Virus record (IMG/VR): IMGVR_UViG_3300027896_000103
Coordinates: 1-38,544 of that record
Direction: 5' to 3' (one strand)
Length of the DNA stretch: 38,544 bases
Source of the DNA: a virus
Shown: piece by piece, positions 1 through 14,445 of the stretch
Layout of the letters: each line of letters opens with the position of its first letter
How positions within the stretch are numbered: the stretch's first letter is position 1
Program-made: the position numbers and the translations under genes
Notes under the pieces: model-generated
The model's database searches: none
Told to the model about the DNA's origin: nothing
The model's input: the letters and a program-made list of their open reading frames with translations, nothing else

Positions 1-252
1 GACCGCTGATGTCGCCGCGAAGACCGCTGACGTTGCCGTGAAGACCGCTGACGTTGCCGTAAAGACCAGTGACGTCGCCGCAAATACCGCTGACGTTGCC
101 GTGAAGACCGCTGACGTTGCCGTAAAGACCAGTGACGTCGCCGCAAATACCGCTGACGTTGCCGTGAAGACCGCTGATGTCGCCGCGAAGATCGATAACG
201 TCGCCGTTAATACCGCTGACGTCGCCGCGAAGACCGCTGACGTCGCCACGAA
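1..252. repeat. 21-bp tandem repeat, about 12 units
   Basis: Twelve consecutive 21-bp units (type unit gaccgctgacgttgccgtgaa) run from base 1 to 252 and code for the heptads of the leftward gene. A higher-order repeat is visible: bases 43-105 and 106-168 are identical three-unit (63-bp) blocks, which points to recent unequal duplication. The array continues off the left edge. Confidence 0.95.
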
Positions 253-3224: not shown

Positions 3225-3254
3225 AGTGTAGCATGACGTATATCTATTTGTCAA
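3225..3254 (-). promoter_or_regulatory. Leftward promoter for DUF7666-like gene
   Basis: Minus strand: TTGACA (3254-3249), an 18-bp spacer, then TACACT (3230-3225) with an extended TGC. The -35 box contains the TGA stop (3253-3251) of the upstream 139-aa gene. AGAAAGGAG follows at 3218-3210. Confidence 0.75.
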
Positions 3255-3670
3255 GCTATTTCTACTACGCGCCACATGGCGACACGACTATATGTACTCA
3301 CACGTTCAAGCCGCTTGCCATCCACAGACCGGTTACTAATACGACGAAGATCCATTCCTAGGCGCGGAGCACTAGGCAACTCACCATTAGATAAATGACA
3401 TAGTGCGCAAACGACCGAAAACATATCGAGATATGCGAATGGATGATTTTTTAATAATGCCAATATCTCACTAGTCTTTATACCGTTTCTTCCCTCATAC
3501 ATTTCTGGTAAAACGGAGCATAATATACATAAAATATGTTCCTCATCTGCGGTAAGAACAGACGGAGGATGTACCCGCCCCTCAAGATCTTTACATAGCG
3601 ATTGAAGCTGATAAATAGCCCCTCTTGCATGGGTTAAGATATTTTTAATTTCAATATCGTTCATTTCCAT
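3251..3670 (-). CDS. Stand-alone copy of the primase C-terminal domain
   Basis: In this 139-aa protein, residues about 49-137 align without gaps to residues about 672-761 of the primase-helicase in this window. Shared residues include LC..LP.MY.G..G.KT.EIL..L, then LC....G.LP...RLG..LR.I..R.V.GK.L and a terminal WRV. I count roughly 35 identities over about 88 positions by eye. The predicted alternation of helices ending in a basic hairpin suggests a winged-helix, nucleic-acid-binding fold. Residues 1-45 are unique. The ATG at 3670 has AGAAAGGAG (3685-3677) and its own promoter, and the gene is the first leftward gene beside the origin repeats. It could bind the origin, load the helicase, or compete with the primase for the same site. 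These roles are inference; the paralogy is seen directly. Confidence 0.8.
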   Translation of the reverse strand: MEMNDIEIKNILTHARGAIYQLQSLCKDLEGRVHPPSVLTADEEHILCILCSVLPEMYEGRNGIKTSEILALLKNHPFAYLDMFSVVCALCHLSNGELPSAPRLGMDLRRISNRSVDGKRLERVSTYSRVAMWRVVEIA

Positions 3671-3736: not shown

Positions 3737-3990
3737 CGTGTAAAATGACCATATGTTTTTCATGTAAAATTTGTAATTCGTGTAAAATGACCATATGTTT
3801 TTCATGTAAAATTTGTAATTCGTGTAAAATGACCATATGTTTTTCATGTAAAATTTGTAATTCGTGTAAAATGACCATATGTTTTTCATGTAAAATTTGT
3901 AATTCGTGTAAAATGACCATATGTTTTTCATGTAAAATTTGTAATTCGTGTAAAATGACCATATGTTTTTAATATGAAATTTGTAATTTA
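3737..3990. repeat. 42-bp tandem iterons, five full copies and a diverged sixth
   Basis: Units begin at 3737, 3779, 3821, 3863 and 3905, and are essentially identical. A sixth unit starting at 3947 decays after about 28 bp. Each unit carries two TGTAAAAT words and one CATATG. Because 42 is a multiple of three, several frames stay open across the array, but these open frames lack start signals and are not genes. The position beside perfect DnaA boxes suggests initiator-binding iterons or a partition-type site. Confidence 0.9.
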
Positions 3991-4021: not shown

Positions 4022-4194
4022 TGTGGATAACTTACACCAATTGTGGATAACTTACATAAAAATTTTTTGTTGTAAATTTATTTAAGCACCAATTGTGGAT
4101 AACTTACACCAATTGTGGATAACTTACATAAAAATTTTTTGTTGTAAATTTATTTAAGCACCAATTGTGGATAACTTACACCAATTGTGGATAA
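4022..4194 (-). repeat. Six perfect DnaA boxes in three pairs on a 72-bp repeat
   Basis: TGTGGATAA, the reverse complement of the consensus DnaA box TTATCCACA, occurs at 4022, 4042, 4094, 4114, 4166 and 4186. Boxes within a pair start 20 bp apart, so they lie on nearly the same helix face. Pairs recur every 72 bp. All six point the same way. Each pair is embedded in ATTGTGGATAACTTACA-type sequence and followed, in the first two repeats, by a T-rich stretch around TTGTAAATTTATTTAAGCACC. Confidence 0.9.
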
Positions 4195-4270
4195 CTTACA
4201 TATATTTTTATAAAAGGACTCGTGTTATCTTTTTACATTTACAAATTTCTGCCCTATATCTGTGCAAAAA

Positions 4271-4651: not shown

Positions 4652-4707
4652 GCCTCATAACTATTGAGATATAAAGCAAATGATCCCACCTATCTAGTTT
4701 TTGCTTA

Positions 4708-4732
4708 GTATGTCGGCTATTCTTCGACATAC
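4708..4732. promoter_or_regulatory. Perfect 8-bp inverted repeat upstream of late-type promoter
   Basis: GTATGTCG (4708-4715) and CGACATAC (4725-4732) are perfect inverted arms around a 9-nt loop, followed by a T-rich run. It may be a terminator stem isolating the origin from the rightward promoter, or an operator for it. Confidence 0.5.
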
Positions 4733-4741
4733 GTGTTATTT

Positions 4742-4779
4742 ATTTTTCTTGACATCCTTTCAGAATTGGTCTAGGCTAG
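4742..4779 (+). promoter_or_regulatory. Structural-gene promoter motif, copy 1
   Basis: ATTTTTCTTG (4742-4751) is followed after exactly 20 nt by TAGGCTAG (4772-4779). The same layout recurs at 10382 and 15306. It can be read as TTGACA-N17-TAGGCT, a sigma-70-like promoter with a non-standard -10. Transcription would begin near 4784, right at the ATG at 4785. Confidence 0.65.
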
Positions 4780-4784
4780 TTGTC

Positions 4785-5321
4785 ATGATTGATTGTAATA
4801 AACAGAGTGACGAATCAACTCAGGACTATCAGTATTTTTCGGACTACCTGAATGCAGGTCCGGCACGATCGCTTGCTTTATTTGCCGACCTTTCGCCTTA
4901 TGATAGAAAATATGTGTTATCACTTTCTATTAAACATCATTGGGCAGAGAGATGCCGCAAATTCGATCTGGAGCACGCACCCGAACTTGTAACTAATATT
5001 ATACAGGAATCGACTAATGCAGAGCGGTTTGAGCGAACAGTAAAAACAGCGGCATTAATCTGTGAGACGGAAATTGTTAAGTATCTCGATCTTGTCAAGT
5101 TATCTTTAAACCCACAGTTAGGTATGCAAGAGTTATTGAAACTACTAGATGCCGCTGTACAGGTTGAGCGTTTACTTAATAATCAACCGGGGCATATCGA
5201 TGAACACCGTATAAGCGGCGACGATAAAGCGCACTTGATTGATCTTCTCAAGCATCCGAAGGAAGTGAGTTTGGTGGAGGAGATTTTAACATCTATTCAG
5301 GAGAAAGAACATGATAAGTAG
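4785..5321 (+). CDS. Probable terminase small subunit
   Basis: A 178-aa protein. Residues about 22-45 read NAGPARSLALFADLSPYDRK, then LSIKHHWAERCRKFD, which resembles the helix-turn-helix and W..R...[FY]D signature of phage terminase small subunits, where the domain recognises packaging DNA. The rest is helical (ELLKLLDAAVQVERLL), as in oligomerising small terminases. An upstream in-frame ATG at 4701 is rejected because a promoter lies inside that extension. The ATG at 4785 sits at the predicted transcript start, so translation may be leaderless. The last codons overlap the ribosome site and start of the next gene by 11 bp. The large terminase is 2.5 kb downstream. It could instead be another DNA-binding regulator. 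Confidence 0.5.
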   Translation: MIDCNKQSDESTQDYQYFSDYLNAGPARSLALFADLSPYDRKYVLSLSIKHHWAERCRKFDLEHAPELVTNIIQESTNAERFERTVKTAALICETEIVKYLDLVKLSLNPQLGMQELLKLLDAAVQVERLLNNQPGHIDEHRISGDDKAHLIDLLKHPKEVSLVEEILTSIQEKEHDK

Positions 5322-5499
5322 ATCACATATGCGGCGTATACAAATATTAAAAGAAGTAAAAGGTCCATTACTTATATGTTCAACTTGCGCGACCGAATAT
5401 CGATCTGAATTGTGGGATATGTGTCCGGTTTGTGGTTGTGTTGAAACAACGGCTGATATTATTGAGGCGAATTCAATACAGGAGAAAGAACATGATTGA
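5311..5499 (+). CDS. Small zinc-ribbon protein
   Basis: A 62-aa protein with two CxxC pairs: CSTC at about residues 28-31 and CPVCGC at about 43-48. This gives a treble-clef or zinc-ribbon knuckle as in small nucleic-acid-binding or adaptor proteins. Start: CAGGAGAAAGAAC directly precedes the ATG and lies within the end of the previous gene (11-bp overlap). Its own tail ends in the same translated junction (IQEKEHD), 8 bp past the next ATG. No specific family is recognised. Confidence 0.65.
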   Translation: MISRSHMRRIQILKEVKGPLLICSTCATEYRSELWDMCPVCGCVETTADIIEANSIQEKEHD

Positions 5500-5659
5500 T
5501 ATGGCTGATCTTGAATCAATAAAAGATTACCTTCGGCTTTTGCAAGAACGTTGGTTGCGTGAAGCGCGACGTGCTCGAAATAAGTTTCCGAAACTAAGTA
5601 AAGTTGAAAAACGAAATATTCGGCGGAATAAAAAAGCTAGGATGAAAGAACATGATTAA
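5492..5659 (+). CDS. Small basic protein of unknown function
   Basis: A 55-aa, very basic protein: MIDMADLESIKDYLRLLQER, then many Arg/Lys residues (REARRARNKFPKLSKVEKRN). It is likely a helical nucleic-acid-binding or ribosome-binding peptide, but no family is recognised. Start: the ATG at 5492 sits 8 nt after CAGGAG. An earlier in-frame ATG at 5432 lies inside the preceding zinc-ribbon gene and has no ribosome site. It overlaps both neighbours by 8 bp, so its translation is probably coupled. Confidence 0.6.
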   Translation: MIDMADLESIKDYLRLLQERWLREARRARNKFPKLSKVEKRNIRRNKKARMKEHD

Positions 5660-5825
5660 TTTAATCGTGTGTAATTGTTGCGGCACCGCATATGATCCGG
5701 CTTGCTTTGAGGTTTGTATTGTGTGCGGCCGATACAATTTTCGTCCAAATGAAGATTTTTCTGACGTCGATGATGATGATGACGACGATGATGAATATGT
5801 AGATCGTCGGCAATTGAAGGTATGA
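5652..5825 (+). CDS. Small zinc-ribbon protein with poly-Asp stretch
   Basis: A 57-aa protein with CNCC (residues 7-10) and a second pair CIVC (22-25), a likely zinc ribbon. It is followed by an acidic run of eight consecutive aspartates (about 40-47) coded by GAT/GAC repeats, and a short basic end. The combination of a metal knuckle and an acidic, DNA-mimic-like tail suggests binding to a basic partner, which is inference. The ATG at 5652 overlaps the previous gene by 8 bp at the third copy of the GAAAGAACATGAT junction. Its TGA overlaps the next ATG (ATGA). Confidence 0.6.
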   Translation: MINLIVCNCCGTAYDPACFEVCIVCGRYNFRPNEDFSDVDDDDDDDDEYVDRRQLKV

Positions 5826-6019
5826 TGATTTGTCCACAGTGTGATAAAGATATTGTACCAGAAGTTTATAATGAACTTCGAAGATATATTTATTGTAATA
5901 AATATGTACTTATCGCGGATAGATTTTTTCGGTGTCCTGAATGTCGTGGTGAATGGAGTGTAGATAAGTTTGATTTTGCTGCAGAGGTTTATAAAAAATA
6001 TGACCAAATGTCCAAGTGA
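5822..6019 (+). CDS. Small zinc-ribbon protein
   Basis: A 65-aa protein with CPQC at residues 4-7 and CPEC near residues 38-41, spaced as in zinc ribbons, followed by RGEWSVDKFDF. It is the third Cys-pair mini-protein in this operon. The start is the ATG at 5822, overlapping the previous stop by 4 bp. No ribosome site stands out, so it is probably translated by coupling. The family is not recognised. Confidence 0.6.
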   Translation: MMICPQCDKDIVPEVYNELRRYIYCNKYVLIADRFFRCPECRGEWSVDKFDFAAEVYKKYDQMSK

Positions 6020-6540: not shown

Positions 6541-7359
6541 ATGTACGGTGTAATCTACCTTACAACTAATTTGATCAACGGCAAGCAATATGTTGGGCAA
6601 CATAAATGTTTATCAATAAAAAGCTTTATAGAAAGCGGATATAAAGGCAGCGGGTGTCTGATAAAACAAGCTTTTAAAAAATACGGAAAAGTAAATTTTT
6701 CTATTTGTGTTTTAGAGATTGTTGATACTTTAGATGATGCAAATACACGAGAAACAGATTTGATTGCCGCTTGGGAAACGCAGCGTCCGGTCGGATATAA
6801 TTTGCAAGCAGGTGGTGATGGGCATATTGTAGATGAAATCACGTTAGAGAAAATGCGATTGGTATCAACAGGTAAGCATTGCTCAGAGAAAGCGAAAGAA
6901 AAGCTGCGATGGATTAATAAATGTGAAAATCTATCGTCTGAAACGCGGGCTAGGCGCTCTCGTGGAATGTTAGGTCATATTGTATCTGCAGAGACGCGTA
7001 AAAAAATTAGTGCTGCACAAATTGGAAAAAATATATCGTTTGAGACTAGAGAACGTCAGCGTCTTGCACATATTGGTAAGCCGGGTAATCGTCTAGGATC
7101 ACATTTATCAAACGAGATGCGAGAATATCTGCGTCAATGTAATCTTGGGAAAAAACACTCGGCCGAAACTAAAGAAAAAATGTCGCTATCTAGGAGAGGT
7201 GTGAAACATCCTATGTTTGGAAAACATCATTCGATGGAATCACGGGCAAAAATTAGTTTCTCCCAGCATGGAAGAACAATATCGGTCGAAACAAGATCAA
7301 AAATAAGCGAGACTTTTAAACATAATAAACTATTAAAATTTTGGTTGGGGTGTATGTAG
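6541..7359 (+). CDS. GIY-YIG homing endonuclease with NUMOD3 repeats
   Basis: A 272-aa protein. The N-terminal GIY-YIG nuclease domain (about 1-95) shows VIYLTT (4-9), YVGQH (17-21), the likely metal-binding glutamate in RETDLI (E71) and GYNLQAGGDG (85-94). Residues about 100-262 carry about six NUMOD3-type DNA-contact motifs of the form S.ETR.KIS (SAETRKKIS, SAETKEKMS, SVETRSKIS). Such free-standing enzymes cleave a related genome at a site near their own gene and spread by recombination. It is a clear paralog of the endonuclease at 13382-14245, with an almost identical start (MYGV.YLTTNLINGKQYVGQH). It has its own promoter and a possible RNA switch. Confidence 0.9.
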   Translation: MYGVIYLTTNLINGKQYVGQHKCLSIKSFIESGYKGSGCLIKQAFKKYGKVNFSICVLEIVDTLDDANTRETDLIAAWETQRPVGYNLQAGGDGHIVDEITLEKMRLVSTGKHCSEKAKEKLRWINKCENLSSETRARRSRGMLGHIVSAETRKKISAAQIGKNISFETRERQRLAHIGKPGNRLGSHLSNEMREYLRQCNLGKKHSAETKEKMSLSRRGVKHPMFGKHHSMESRAKISFSQHGRTISVETRSKISETFKHNKLLKFWLGCM

Positions 7360-7388
7360 CGTCCCCTAGAAAATCCTCAGTATAAAGA

Positions 7389-7574
7389 ATGCTAGACATA
7401 AAGAAAATTGTTGAGGATGTCGAAGGAATGCGGGCTAGGCTTGCTGTACGTGGAGACATTCCAGAGTTGCAGCTATTAGACCGTATCGTTGCTTTATATC
7501 GACAACGATGTGCGCTTATTGGTGAACTTGAACAACGACGACATCAGAAAAAACTTAGATCTAAAAAATGTTGA
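7389..7574 (+). CDS. Mini-protein resembling seryl-tRNA synthetase N-terminal arm
   Basis: A 61-aa protein. From its first residue it follows the start of seryl-tRNA synthetases, which typically read MLDIK.IRENPE.V...L..RGD, then ELLD....LD...REL..E...LR.ERN. Here the matching parts are MLDIKKIVEDVEGMRARL, RGDIPELQLLDRIVALYRQR and ALIGELEQRR. In the synthetase this region is the first helix pair of the coiled-coil arm that grips the long arm of tRNA-Ser. The protein stops where the arm would continue, ending in a basic KKLRSKKC. It has no catalytic domain. No good ribosome site is visible and it overlaps the next gene by 7 bp. Resemblance judged by eye; a chance coiled coil is the alternative. 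Confidence 0.55.
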   Translation: MLDIKKIVEDVEGMRARLAVRGDIPELQLLDRIVALYRQRCALIGELEQRRHQKKLRSKKC

Positions 7575-7858
7575 CTGCTGAAAAATATCGTCGTATGTGT
7601 TTGATATATCGGCAGTTTGCACACAACGAATCATTAGATTTTTCCGACGCAGCAATGGCGGAGATGTATCAACATGAGACATACGGCAAATCTGTTTCAG
7701 ATATTAATGGCTTTTGTATCGGTAAGAAATGGTTGAATGTAACCGTTGCAATGTGGTATGAAGATATAAAAATAGGGTTGTTGTCAATAGAAGAACTGCT
7801 TGCGGATAAGCAATTTCCTAAATGGTGGATTGAATCGGTTATTAAAAAATGGCGCTAA
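7568..7858 (+). CDS. Hypothetical protein upstream of large terminase
   Basis: A 96-aa mostly helical protein (MLTAEKYRRMCLIYRQFAHN) with a Trp-rich C-terminus (FPKWWIESVIKKWR). No family is recognised. It overlaps the large terminase start by 10 bp and the upstream mini-gene by 7 bp, so all three are probably coupled. Its place directly before the large terminase makes a packaging-accessory role, or an alternative small terminase, possible but unproven. Confidence 0.5.
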   Translation: MLTAEKYRRMCLIYRQFAHNESLDFSDAAMAEMYQHETYGKSVSDINGFCIGKKWLNVTVAMWYEDIKIGLLSIEELLADKQFPKWWIESVIKKWR

Positions 7859-9252
7859 CCGCCGAAAAATTAGCACAGCATAAATATATGCTGCACAGTT
7901 ATACATTTGCGGAACACGTGTCACAAGGGCGATGGCAACCGTATAAATGGTGTGTTGCAACGATGGGGTATTTTGAAAAGGAATTATTAAAAGGAAATTT
8001 TCGCGGAATTGCAACTATGCCCCCGCAGCATGGGAAGTCGCTTTCAATGTCTTGGTTGGCGGCATGGTTACTGGCGCTCAATCCATCATTGCGTTTAGGA
8101 TGGGGCACTTATTCAGATGCACGTGCTTTGTATTGGGGGTCTATGATTCGTTCGGTGTTTGTTGAGAATCCATGGCTAGGAGTTATATTACGCAAAGACA
8201 CAAAGCGTATGAACGAATGGCGAACGGTGGAGGGAGGCGGTTTAAAATCTGTTGGTGTGGGTGGTTCATTAACGGGATATCCAGTTGATATAATGTTCCT
8301 TGACGATTTAATTAAAGACTATGCAGATGCGTATTCACCAGTGATTAGAGAAACGATTCGAAACTGGTTTGACAGTGTTGTGTATTTTCGAATACAACCA
8401 GGTGGTAGCATTTTAGCGGATGGGACTCGCTGGCATATGGCCGACATTCTCGGTTACTTCATTAACGAACATGCTGACAAATGGCATGTGATTAATTTAC
8501 CGGCACTAGCTGAGGAGAACGATGCTATTGGGCGCGTGTTGGGCGAGGCTTTATGTCCTGAGCGATATGATCGAGAAGCGTTGTTGCGAATAAAAGAAGC
8601 GACCCCTGAGCCTATATGGACATCGATGTTTCAATGTAGACCGTCTCCTGACGGCGGCGCTATTATTAAACGAGATTGGATTAAGCGATATCATCCATCG
8701 GAATTGCCCGCGCGCGAGGATGATTCGTGTATTTCGCTTGATTGTACATTTAAAGAAAGCGGTACTTCGTTTGTTGCAGCTCATGTATGGCAACGAACGA
8801 GCGCTAATTTTTATCTTGTTGATCGACGCCATGCGCGAATGTCTTATGTTGAAACAAAAATTATGTTTCGTGCCTTATGTAATCAACATAAAAATGTACG
8901 TAAGAAATATGTAGAAGAGGCGGCGAATGGACTTGCATTAATGTCAGATTTGAAGGACGAGATTAGCGGTATTATTGGCGTTAAGGTTCACGAATCTAAA
9001 ATGGCGCGTTTTGTGTCTGTAAGTCCATATTTTCAAGCGGGTAATGTGTGGATACCTTATGGTAAAGAATACGACGAACTTATTGAAGAGTTGGTAACGT
9101 TTCCATCTGCTCCTAACGATGATGATTGTGATGCATGTAGTATGGCGTTGACACAAATGCACTATGCGTCGTATGATACTAATTTTTCATTGGGCGGTGG
9201 CAGTACAGGTGCGGATTTAGGGCATCGAGAATCGCCGTGGCGGTTCAGTTAA
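7849..9252 (+). CDS. terL: Terminase large subunit
   Basis: This 467-aa DNA-packaging motor and headful/site nuclease acts at the portal vertex. The ATPase domain has Walker A PPQHGKS (58-64), Walker B IMFLDD (148-153) and a coupling-type DGTRW (191-195). The C-terminal RNase H-like nuclease shows D298 in ISLDCTF, the EEAANG segment (356-361) and the acidic cluster NDDDCDAC (423-430). The protein is full length for the family. It starts inside the end of the previous gene (10-bp overlap). Confidence 0.93.
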   Translation: MALTAEKLAQHKYMLHSYTFAEHVSQGRWQPYKWCVATMGYFEKELLKGNFRGIATMPPQHGKSLSMSWLAAWLLALNPSLRLGWGTYSDARALYWGSMIRSVFVENPWLGVILRKDTKRMNEWRTVEGGGLKSVGVGGSLTGYPVDIMFLDDLIKDYADAYSPVIRETIRNWFDSVVYFRIQPGGSILADGTRWHMADILGYFINEHADKWHVINLPALAEENDAIGRVLGEALCPERYDREALLRIKEATPEPIWTSMFQCRPSPDGGAIIKRDWIKRYHPSELPAREDDSCISLDCTFKESGTSFVAAHVWQRTSANFYLVDRRHARMSYVETKIMFRALCNQHKNVRKKYVEEAANGLALMSDLKDEISGIIGVKVHESKMARFVSVSPYFQAGNVWIPYGKEYDELIEELVTFPSAPNDDDCDACSMALTQMHYASYDTNFSLGGGSTGADLGHRESPWRFS

Positions 9253-12384: not shown

Positions 12385-13382
12385 ATTTTATATTGGCGGC
12401 ACGCCGACAACTTGTTCGAAAAGCGAAATCAGCTTTGACGTCTCATAAATACGTACAAAATTTTGAAATTTCTTTAAAGCATGAGAAAGCCTTTGCGCAC
12501 GCTGTTCGAAAACTCTGGGAAGATTTAATAACGCCTCGAATTGAACATGCCTTTACTCATGCTTGGTTAACGGGTAAGACTCTGCCGGAAATCAAGGCGA
12601 CTATTCCTTACTTCACTAGGGATACGTCGGATGATGTATGGTTAGAATTTGTAGATGAACTTTCAAAGGCCTATGAGGGTGCTATTAAAGAATCCGGTGA
12701 CGCAGCGATGCGTGACTTAGGTACTCGTTTTGGTATCCAAATAAAGTTTACTTTATTAAACGATAGGGTTAGTAAAGCAACGGCTCAAGAGAAGGCGGAG
12801 TTTAGGGAACAAGTGGCCCTTCCGATAAATCCGTACAGCGTCATTTGGATGAAAAAGCGATCATTGAATCTTATCCGTGAGTCTTTTACGTCTGAACAAA
12901 AATCAGTAGTTGGTAAAATTTTACAGGATTCGTTTAATAAGGGTATACGGGCGACGAGTGTGATTGAGAACATACGTTCTAATATAGGATTGACAAGGCA
13001 AGGCTTTGATGCAGTTGAGCGCGTTCGCGAGACTTGGACGGAAGCACAGCTACCAACGGCGCGTATTGATACGCTTGTTGAAACGTATCGAGACAAACTT
13101 TTAAATCAGCGTGCTATGACTATAGCGCGGACCGAAACAGCTTATGCTGTTTCTGAGGGGCGCCGAGAAGCCTGGATGATGGCGAAAAATGAAGGCGAAT
13201 TACCAAAAAATGTAATTAGAACATGGATTTCGGCACCCGAAAGTATTCGTCTTTGTCCTGAATGTCAAGAAAGTGATGGAACGACAGCGGCTATTGATGA
13301 ACAATACGATAATGGATCTGATGGTCCGCCGTTACATCCCAACTGCCGTTGTCTTGAGATATTATCCGAGGAGTCTGAATAA
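12381..13382 (+). CDS. MuF-like minor head protein
   Basis: A 333-aa minor capsid protein of the Mu gp30 / SPP1 gp7 family, bound to the portal and injected with or needed for packaged DNA. The N-terminal two thirds are helical. The C-terminal signature is complete: MTIARTETAYAVSEGRREA, then KNVIRTWISA, the metal-type cysteines CPECQ, and GPPLHPNCRC near the end. It has a 4-bp overlap with the membrane-protein gene, and its TAA overlaps the ATG of the second homing endonuclease (TAATG). Confidence 0.88.
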   Translation: MNFILAARRQLVRKAKSALTSHKYVQNFEISLKHEKAFAHAVRKLWEDLITPRIEHAFTHAWLTGKTLPEIKATIPYFTRDTSDDVWLEFVDELSKAYEGAIKESGDAAMRDLGTRFGIQIKFTLLNDRVSKATAQEKAEFREQVALPINPYSVIWMKKRSLNLIRESFTSEQKSVVGKILQDSFNKGIRATSVIENIRSNIGLTRQGFDAVERVRETWTEAQLPTARIDTLVETYRDKLLNQRAMTIARTETAYAVSEGRREAWMMAKNEGELPKNVIRTWISAPESIRLCPECQESDGTTAAIDEQYDNGSDGPPLHPNCRCLEILSEESE

Positions 13383-14245
13383 TGTATGGTGTTGTTTATT
13401 TAACAACTAATTTAATTAATGGTAAACAATATGTAGGTCAACACAAACATAATTCAAGTAATAAATATTACCGAGGAGGTGGGACGGTTTTGCATCGAGC
13501 ATGGAAAAAGTATGGCAAAGATAATTTTTCTTTTGATATATTGGAAGAAGCAGATAGTTTCGAAGTTCTTAATGCGGCCGAGAAGCGATGGATTGCTGTT
13601 TTAGAAACTAAAGCGCCTTGTGGATATAATTTAACGGAGGGCGGCGATGGCACCGTAGGATATGTACCGTCGATTGCAGCTCGTCGAAAAATGTCGAATA
13701 AACTAATGGGTAATAAGCATACTAAGGGACAGAAGCGATCCGTGGAGCAGCGGCAACACATGTCGGACGCACAAAAAAATCATATTGCTTACAACAAAGG
13801 ACTTCCTTGTTCTGCGGCTCAAAAACAATCTATTTCCGAAAAGCTAAAAGGCCGTATTCCTTGGAACAAAGGTAAATTGGGTTGTTTTTCGGAGGATACT
13901 CTTAAGGCTATGTCCAATAGTCATAAAGGGATTTCTCCGGTCAATAAGGGTATTAAAGGCATTGTACATTTATGGAGTTCTGAGCGTCCTAATCCCGCCC
14001 AAGGGAAAAAGAGATCCGCAGAATCTATTCGTAAACAGAAAGAGCATTCACAAGGACGAGTTTTTTCAGAAGAACATCGGCGGCATTTATCTGAGGCGGG
14101 TTGTGGTCGTCATTTATATGATTCTAATCATCCTAATCCACAAAAAGGTAAATTAAAACACTCGATAGAAACTCGTTTAAAGATGTCACAAATTCGAAAA
14201 GGTAAAACCCCATGTAAAGGGGCTATTATAAAGGAATCCGAATGA
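13382..14245 (+). CDS. Second GIY-YIG homing endonuclease
   Basis: A 287-aa protein. The nuclease domain has VVYLTT (4-9), YVGQH (17-21), a likely catalytic glutamate in AEKRWI and GYNLTEGGDG. Then come NUMOD3-like repeats (SVEQRQHMSDAQ, SIETRLKMSQIRKG) mixed with repeated W/YNKGK and NPAQGKKR-type segments that probably wrap DNA. It is clearly paralogous to the endonuclease at 6541, but its C-terminal repeats have diverged, so it likely cuts a different site. It has no promoter or hairpin of its own: it uses GAGGAG inside the end of the MuF gene and a 1-bp stop/start overlap. It splits the usual MuF-protease order of the head operon. Confidence 0.88.
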   Translation: MYGVVYLTTNLINGKQYVGQHKHNSSNKYYRGGGTVLHRAWKKYGKDNFSFDILEEADSFEVLNAAEKRWIAVLETKAPCGYNLTEGGDGTVGYVPSIAARRKMSNKLMGNKHTKGQKRSVEQRQHMSDAQKNHIAYNKGLPCSAAQKQSISEKLKGRIPWNKGKLGCFSEDTLKAMSNSHKGISPVNKGIKGIVHLWSSERPNPAQGKKRSAESIRKQKEHSQGRVFSEEHRRHLSEAGCGRHLYDSNHPNPQKGKLKHSIETRLKMSQIRKGKTPCKGAIIKESE

Positions 14246-14445
14246 GTAAAATTTGCGATAAACACATTATCTTGACTAAATCAAACAAGTGTACGTGTTA
14301 TCAAATGTCGGATTATGCTCATTGTTATAGGTGCGGGAACCTGATTTGTGCTCACTGTAACGATGCTGGATTTTTGTGTCCGGCGTGTGAGATTGGATTT
14401 ACGCAAGCTAAACGTGTTTTTGGACTTGAGGAAGAACCGCGTTGA
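14242..14445 (+). CDS. Cysteine-rich zinc-binding protein
   Basis: A 67-aa protein with Cys/His spaced as in a B-box or double zinc ribbon: CDKH (5-8), CTC (17-19), then CYRCGNLICAHC and CPAC. Two zinc sites are likely. It overlaps the endonuclease stop by 4 bp (ATGA) and the next gene by 4 bp (TTGA), so it is translated as part of the same chain. It resembles no named family known to me; adaptor or nucleic-acid-binding roles are possible. Confidence 0.6.
   Translation: MSKICDKHIILTKSNKCTCYQMSDYAHCYRCGNLICAHCNDAGFLCPACEIGFTQAKRVFGLEEEPR

Follow-up and report, generated by a model that had tools for sequence, protein, structure and literature searches.

Why should a tailed phage carry, between its two terminase genes, a reading frame that begins like seryl-tRNA synthetase (SerRS) and ends some 60 residues later? 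The frame occupies positions 7389..7574 (+ strand, stop codon included) of an IMG/VR virus record of 38,544 bases, the whole of which was analysed here and is called the window below, and profile matches of the window's ORFs (contractile-type sheath, Mu-type portal and terminase genes) mark its owner as a tailed phage. An earlier note on this DNA had taken the 61-residue product for an orphan N-terminal piece of SerRS; we ask what the piece is, where it may have come from and what it might do.

Homology to the SerRS N-terminus

The product (MLDIKKIVEDVEGMRARLAVRGDIPELQLLDRIVALYRQRCALIGELEQRRHQKKLRSKKC, 61 aa) can start only at Met1, since an in-frame TAA (7383-7385) stands one codon upstream of the ATG, and this residue aligns with Met1 of SerRS. 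The sole Pfam family found at any level is PF02403 (Seryl_tRNA_N; E 5.3e-8, 33.5 bits against a curated cut-off of 28.2 bits), with residues 1-60 placed on positions 1-58 of a profile of 108 positions, in register from Met1; a six-frame PF02403 search of the window gave the mini-gene 31.1 bits. Because this profile was built without the window sequence in mind, the Pfam score is an independent test, and it bears out both the identification as an orphan SerRS N-terminal piece and the match to Seryl_tRNA_N that the earlier note had proposed as a check. The NCBIfam serS model TIGR00414 matched weakly over residues 1-60 (11.6 bits against a cut-off of 301.65), and the protein falls outside that enzyme family, having neither the class II catalytic domain nor motifs 1-3.

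Comparison with individual synthetases leads to the same place. Bacterial and archaeal genomes supplied 27 SerRS genes with N-termini 34-46% identical to the 61-aa protein; all were confirmed as synthetase genes, mostly of 422-435 aa, a few being cut by contig ends or masked stretches. A SerRS model made of 26 N-termini, partly picked for similarity to the query and hence biased upward, scored the protein at 56.3 bits, against 16.1 for the best of 40,000 shuffles and 4.7 for the best other ORF of the window. Most tblastn matches that start at residue 1 are SerRS N-termini, among them one (H1) read as a 423-aa SerRS adjoining serine dehydratase genes and another (H67) annotated as serS. An apparent homologue in Bacillus phage vB_BpsS-140 (H2) was set aside as chance, the match (E = 10) covering roughly residues 71-120 in a head-region protein of 126 aa, and a profile made from 15 diverse SerRSs proved too divergent for a pattern scan. 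At the level of sequence, we regard homology of the ORF to the first ~60 residues of SerRS as confirmed.

The likeness is nevertheless less exact than the earlier note implied. Set against 61 distinct SerRSs, which range from 32.9 to 80.0 bits, the 61-aa protein scored 43.4 bits, and all but two of them score higher. It keeps M1, L2, D3, I4, K5, I7, R21, G22, D31, L36, R40 and L43, and thus both the MLD and the RGD signatures that had been read in it, together with the wider N-terminal pattern M-[LI]-D-I-K..I followed by RG before the arm. The changes are R8V, D37Y, R41C, L50R and N55K, and four of these fall at positions conserved in 85-97% of the 61 SerRSs (R8 in 59, D37 in 58, R41 in 52 and N55 in 55). 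The C-terminal end is also unusual: a charge count marks a very basic tip, RRHQKKLRSKK (7536..7568, + strand), and residues 49-61 carry a net charge of +7, a value reached by 0/61 SerRSs, in which the maximum is +4. This tip may be only a reflection of the A-rich DNA at this place, where the following ORF has its start region. For codon usage the mini-gene frame is the best of the six, yet it lies below 99.7% of equal-length in-frame stretches of the phage's large genes, a bias that would suit a recently captured gene, a small accessory gene or a decaying one alike.

Predicted structure and nearest relatives

An AlphaFold2 model built from a 25-row alignment (mean pLDDT 88.4) places helices at residues 4-9 and 11-21 and one unbroken helix at 24-60. 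In this model the two short N-terminal helices (7398..7451, + strand; block pLDDT about 81-90) match the cap that forms the base of the N-domain in SerRS, and the alignments put the MLDIK..I signature across its start and the RG signature across its end. The long helix (7458..7568, + strand) is the counterpart of the helix that ascends in the tRNA-binding arm of SerRS, in keeping with a PF02403 match that ends at position 58 of 108. The product would thus stop before the arm turns, as had been supposed; the helical hairpin expected of its structure, however, does not appear in the model, which has a single helix and no return helix, so that the complete antiparallel two-helix arm of Seryl_tRNA_N is lacking. 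A VIA alignment superposes the model in register on Pyrococcus horikoshii SerRS 2dq0 (residues 1..61 on 1..61, rmsd 1.9, top of the list) with a Z of 5.5, a value indecisive for helical proteins; the superposition draws its weight from its register and from the agreement in sequence. With Foldseek alone no match reached significance, which is usual for a helical model this short; among the ranked solved structures P. horikoshii SerRS had the best TM-score (0.70), with an E that is not significant. Compared with the layout of SerRS (PMC11479938), the modelled protein would therefore comprise the base and one arm helix, without return helix, dimer interface or active site.

No copy of the mini-gene was found in 84 other viral records, most of them terminase-related, or in about 830 bacterial genomes (287 Patescibacteria and 544 from two other phyla), in which nearly all matches from residue 1 lay in synthetase-length frames. 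Two apparently short SerRS N-domains (L208 and L211) turned out to be full-length frames of 441 codons under genetic code 4. PF02403 searches found no such gene in the terminase-nearest relatives of the window phage, and IMG/VR searches with single-protein patterns for terminase and portal found no close relatives of the phage, the nearest terminase (L013) being 41% identical.

The substitutions themselves offer some indication of origin. Among the 61 sampled SerRSs a single one, encoded in a Dojkabacteria genome, has V8 and Y37, and further SerRSs with V8, Y37 and an R at 50/51 were found in the Dojkabacteria class, the best of them (45% identity, E 2.8e-7) being the best match in the about 830 genomes of three phyla. 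In a tree of 64 columns the 61-aa protein joins the Dojkabacteria-class SerRSs with support of 87/88, just under the reliable level. These sequences are thus weakly supported as the nearest sampled relatives, which suggests, within a limited sample of phyla, a donor of the Dojkabacteria kind and perhaps a Dojkabacteria host for the phage. The window terminase reaches 38% identity at best in the Dojkabacteria class, over part of the protein.

Genomic setting and possible function

The mini-gene sits in a cassette of small ORFs between the genes for the terminase small and large subunits; the mini-gene, both terminase genes, the endonuclease directly upstream of it and the 96-aa ORF that follows it are on the + strand. 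The interval opens with a terminase small subunit-like ORF (4701..5321; phrog_6299, 5e-8) and includes tiny CxxC-rich, zinc-ribbon-like ORFs (5311-5499, 5652-5825 and 5822-6019). Directly upstream of the mini-gene lies a free-standing homing endonuclease of the GIY-YIG/NUMOD3 type (6541..7359) with a strong ribosome-binding site of its own. A second GIY-YIG-type ORF (13382-14245), judged by sequence, resembles the first and is followed by another tiny CxxC-rich, zinc-ribbon-like ORF (14242-14445); both endonuclease ORFs are close to terminase and head genes, and only the first, with its NUMOD3 repeats, is confirmed. The mini-gene, identified by PF02403, the shuffle test and superposition on SerRS 1-61, has no clear Shine-Dalgarno sequence in front. 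The last 7 bases of the mini-gene are overlapped by the start of a 96-aa ORF (7568..7858) for which there is no Pfam, NCBIfam or credible PHROG match, and this ORF is in turn overlapped by the start of the terminase large subunit gene (7849..9252; Terminase_6N/6C, phrog_38 2e-85). Neither of these two downstream starts has a strong ribosome-binding site, whereas many other window genes have AGGAG-type sites. Since the starts overlap the preceding ORFs and lack strong sites, coupled translation of the downstream ORFs is likely, and the terminase large subunit is probably coupled to the ORF upstream of it.

Across the window there is no tRNA gene, and hence no phage-borne tRNA-Ser; Rfam found no known RNA family and no group I intron at the endonuclease, and a scan of all frames found no other serS remnant and no SerRS catalytic domain. 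At the left end of the record a 21/63-bp array (1-289) encodes a TADVAVKTADVA-type peptide, and because the record starts inside this array it was probably cut within a repeat-rich gene. A 139-aa gene (3251-3670, - strand) repeats the C-terminal domain of a primase/helicase-like protein (332-2623, - strand) with 41% identity over 86 residues, and a 42-bp unit is repeated six times, nearly perfectly (98%), at 3737-3988, and can be translated into a peptide repeat in more than one frame. The region that separates the divergently oriented replication and packaging genes contains 72-bp direct repeats (4022-4202) with six perfect TTATCCACA boxes of the DnaA-box consensus, and TTATNCACA occurs eight times in the window against 2.3 expected; the box array is possibly a phage replication origin that uses host DnaA.

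The explanation we favour, tentatively and at somewhat less than even odds, is that of a captured, shortened serS kept as a small accessory gene, whose product self-associates, binds RNA and weakly influences serylation, as a decoy or modulator. Of a cellular serS, the phage would have retained or acquired nothing but the 5' end, coding for the helical cap and the ascending half of the arm. This piece would serve as an accessory gene within an operon of closely overlapping frames upstream of the large terminase gene, and its translation would be coupled. Since the arm lacks its second helix, self-association or a partner would be needed: the protein would pair with itself, as an antiparallel dimer that rebuilds a hairpin-like coiled coil, or with another protein. 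RNA binding is plausible because the tip is basic, and the tip would bind most plausibly the elbow or variable arm of tRNA-Ser, so that in infected cells the mini-protein would weakly modulate serylation or act as a decoy. A role as tRNA-Ser decoy or modulator is the mechanism we prefer, with low confidence. Against the favoured reading speak the missing half of the arm, the changes at R8, D37, R41 and N55, the atypical codon usage, the lack of a clear Shine-Dalgarno sequence, the possible origin of the basic tip in A-rich DNA, the failure to find a second copy in the related viral records searched, and the absence of tRNA and SerRS genes from the record. More generally, synthetase fragments outside full enzymes often prove to be regulators or helpers, and phages are known to reshape host translation.

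Of the two actions that the earlier note had imagined for a free arm, competition for tRNA-Ser is possible; it would need self-association, with only half of the arm present and four conserved SerRS residues changed. The arm pocket of human mitochondrial SerRS comprises residues 110, 118, 139, 143 and 146, which we infer to span both arm helices. The formation of mixed dimers with the host enzyme by the known route is improbable, since the SerRS dimer interface belongs to the catalytic domain (PMC10817482), and the mini-protein has no such domain.

Nearly as likely as a captured functional fragment, if somewhat less so than the favoured reading, is a relic: serS, whole or in part, would have been present in an ancestral phage and then have lost most of its length by deletion, leaving an open 5' end to drift under no selection for function. 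The loss of conserved SerRS residues, the atypical codon usage and the failure to find any relative all fit such decay, and a clear case of serS decay that leaves the N-domain is at hand in the huge phage LR756504.1 (636 kb). There a stand-alone SerRS N-domain of 120 aa (locus L162, 587038-587397; PF02403 58.7 bits) is followed directly, in about 110 bases, by SerRS remnants in other frames, first motif 3 (HTLNGSAL; 64% over 14 aa to SerRS residues 378-391) and then the C-terminus (ASLLENNQTVYDVKLPYAQDFI). To judge by these remnants, the N-domain ORF is what an internal deletion of serS left open, which is one route to such fragments, and such fragments may be relics. The window, however, holds no remnant of the other SerRS parts, its frame is open from the exact SerRS start and, like working phage genes, runs into the gene that follows, and many core positions are kept at no more than about 46% identity to any SerRS seen.

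Clearly less probable is exaptation of the helical protein to a job unrelated to serine or translation, for example as a small nucleic-acid-binding or packaging accessory. A place in a small-ORF cassette between terminase genes, the basic tip and the lost SerRS residues would all suit this, but with a homing endonuclease and further small ORFs in that interval, position by itself says little, and the terminase-nearest relatives lack such a gene. A still more doubtful proposal is a captured half-arm turned dedicated regulator, in which the self-associating basic mini-protein would hold tRNA-Ser, or protect it against toxins or host defences that target tRNA, thereby controlling serine decoding during infection, with LR756504.1 as a second independent case.

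An action in cis is improbable: translation of the mini-gene would open the start of the 96-aa ORF and, through that, of the terminase, as the overlapping, weakly equipped starts might suggest when set beside the AGGAG-type sites of many other genes of this phage, but overlaps are ordinary in phages and a leader role would not preserve SerRS residues. Chance likeness of a generic charged coiled coil, despite the helical, charged composition and the weak matches of tape-measure and similar proteins, is ruled out for practical purposes by the 40,000 shuffles, by the other window ORFs and by the 84 other viral records, whose PF02403 matches reach at most 15.7 bits and all start inside the profile, against 31-33.5 bits from position 1 for a mini-gene that carries a short signature before the coil.

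Comparison with known systems

The window protein shares with the cellular PF02403 domain a sequence match over the cut-off, its start and the predicted helices of residues 1-60, and differs from it in covering only the first 58 of 108 profile positions, in having no descending helix and no catalytic domain, and in the changes at R8, D37, R41 and N55. Among phages, the earlier note's statement that no protein of this kind had been described holds for the literature searched but not for sequences, as the 120-aa N-domain of LR756504.1 and complete phage SerRS genes make clear. Complete serS genes are found, by annotation or reading, in Brevundimonas jumbo phages such as Kabachok, in the gut phage contigs MT835472.1 and MT836448.1 and in an IMG/VR contig (L165). 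Like the mini-gene these are serS-derived genes in phages, but they are complete, at about 428-435 aa, against a 61-aa fragment in the window. A 'hypothetical protein' overlapping the SerRS of Kabachok is merely a neighbouring gene with an 8-base overlap. SerRS genes in 'phage' records of Enterococcus, Staphylococcus, Listeria and Acinetobacter seem, in those examined, to lie on pieces of bacterial chromosome (for example, serS adjoining serine dehydratase genes or rplU/rpmA), and none was used as a phage example. The LR756504.1 N-domain is closer in kind, being likewise a SerRS N-domain alone in a phage genome, but it keeps the whole hairpin, has decayed remnants adjoining and is not closely related in sequence to the window ORF.

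A small phage protein that acts on a host synthetase is an idea that our proposal shares with the vs gene product of phage T4, which binds host valyl-tRNA synthetase and is not known to derive from a synthetase. PylSn, the N-terminal part of bacterial pyrrolysyl-tRNA synthetase, has a tRNA-binding role. That enzyme consists of two separate polypeptides, PylSn being one of them (PMC6222415), so that PylSn, like the window protein, is the N-terminal part of a synthetase made as a small separate protein; it has, however, a separate catalytic subunit and belongs to a different fold and family, whereas the window protein is without a visible partner. No catalytic partner of this type occurs in the 38.5-kb record, which may be a fragment, and the host could supply one.

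In animal mitochondria the functions of SerRS are split between SLIMP and SerRS2alpha, one subunit keeping the arm and the other the active site (PMC10817482), but these are long, nuclear-encoded proteins with catalytic-domain folds that dimerise as a pair, unlike the window protein. Arabidopsis has catalytically null synthetase fragments of unknown function, with no conservation between its fragment set and that of rice (PMC7564348); like the window gene these are synthetase pieces without an active site, but they are plant genes. If the mini-gene is a relic, it documents, with LR756504.1, the paring down of synthetase genes picked up by phages. If it is functional, the phage would have a very small tool for acting on tRNA-Ser or SerRS, and viruses, like cells, would be seen to exapt synthetase fragments.
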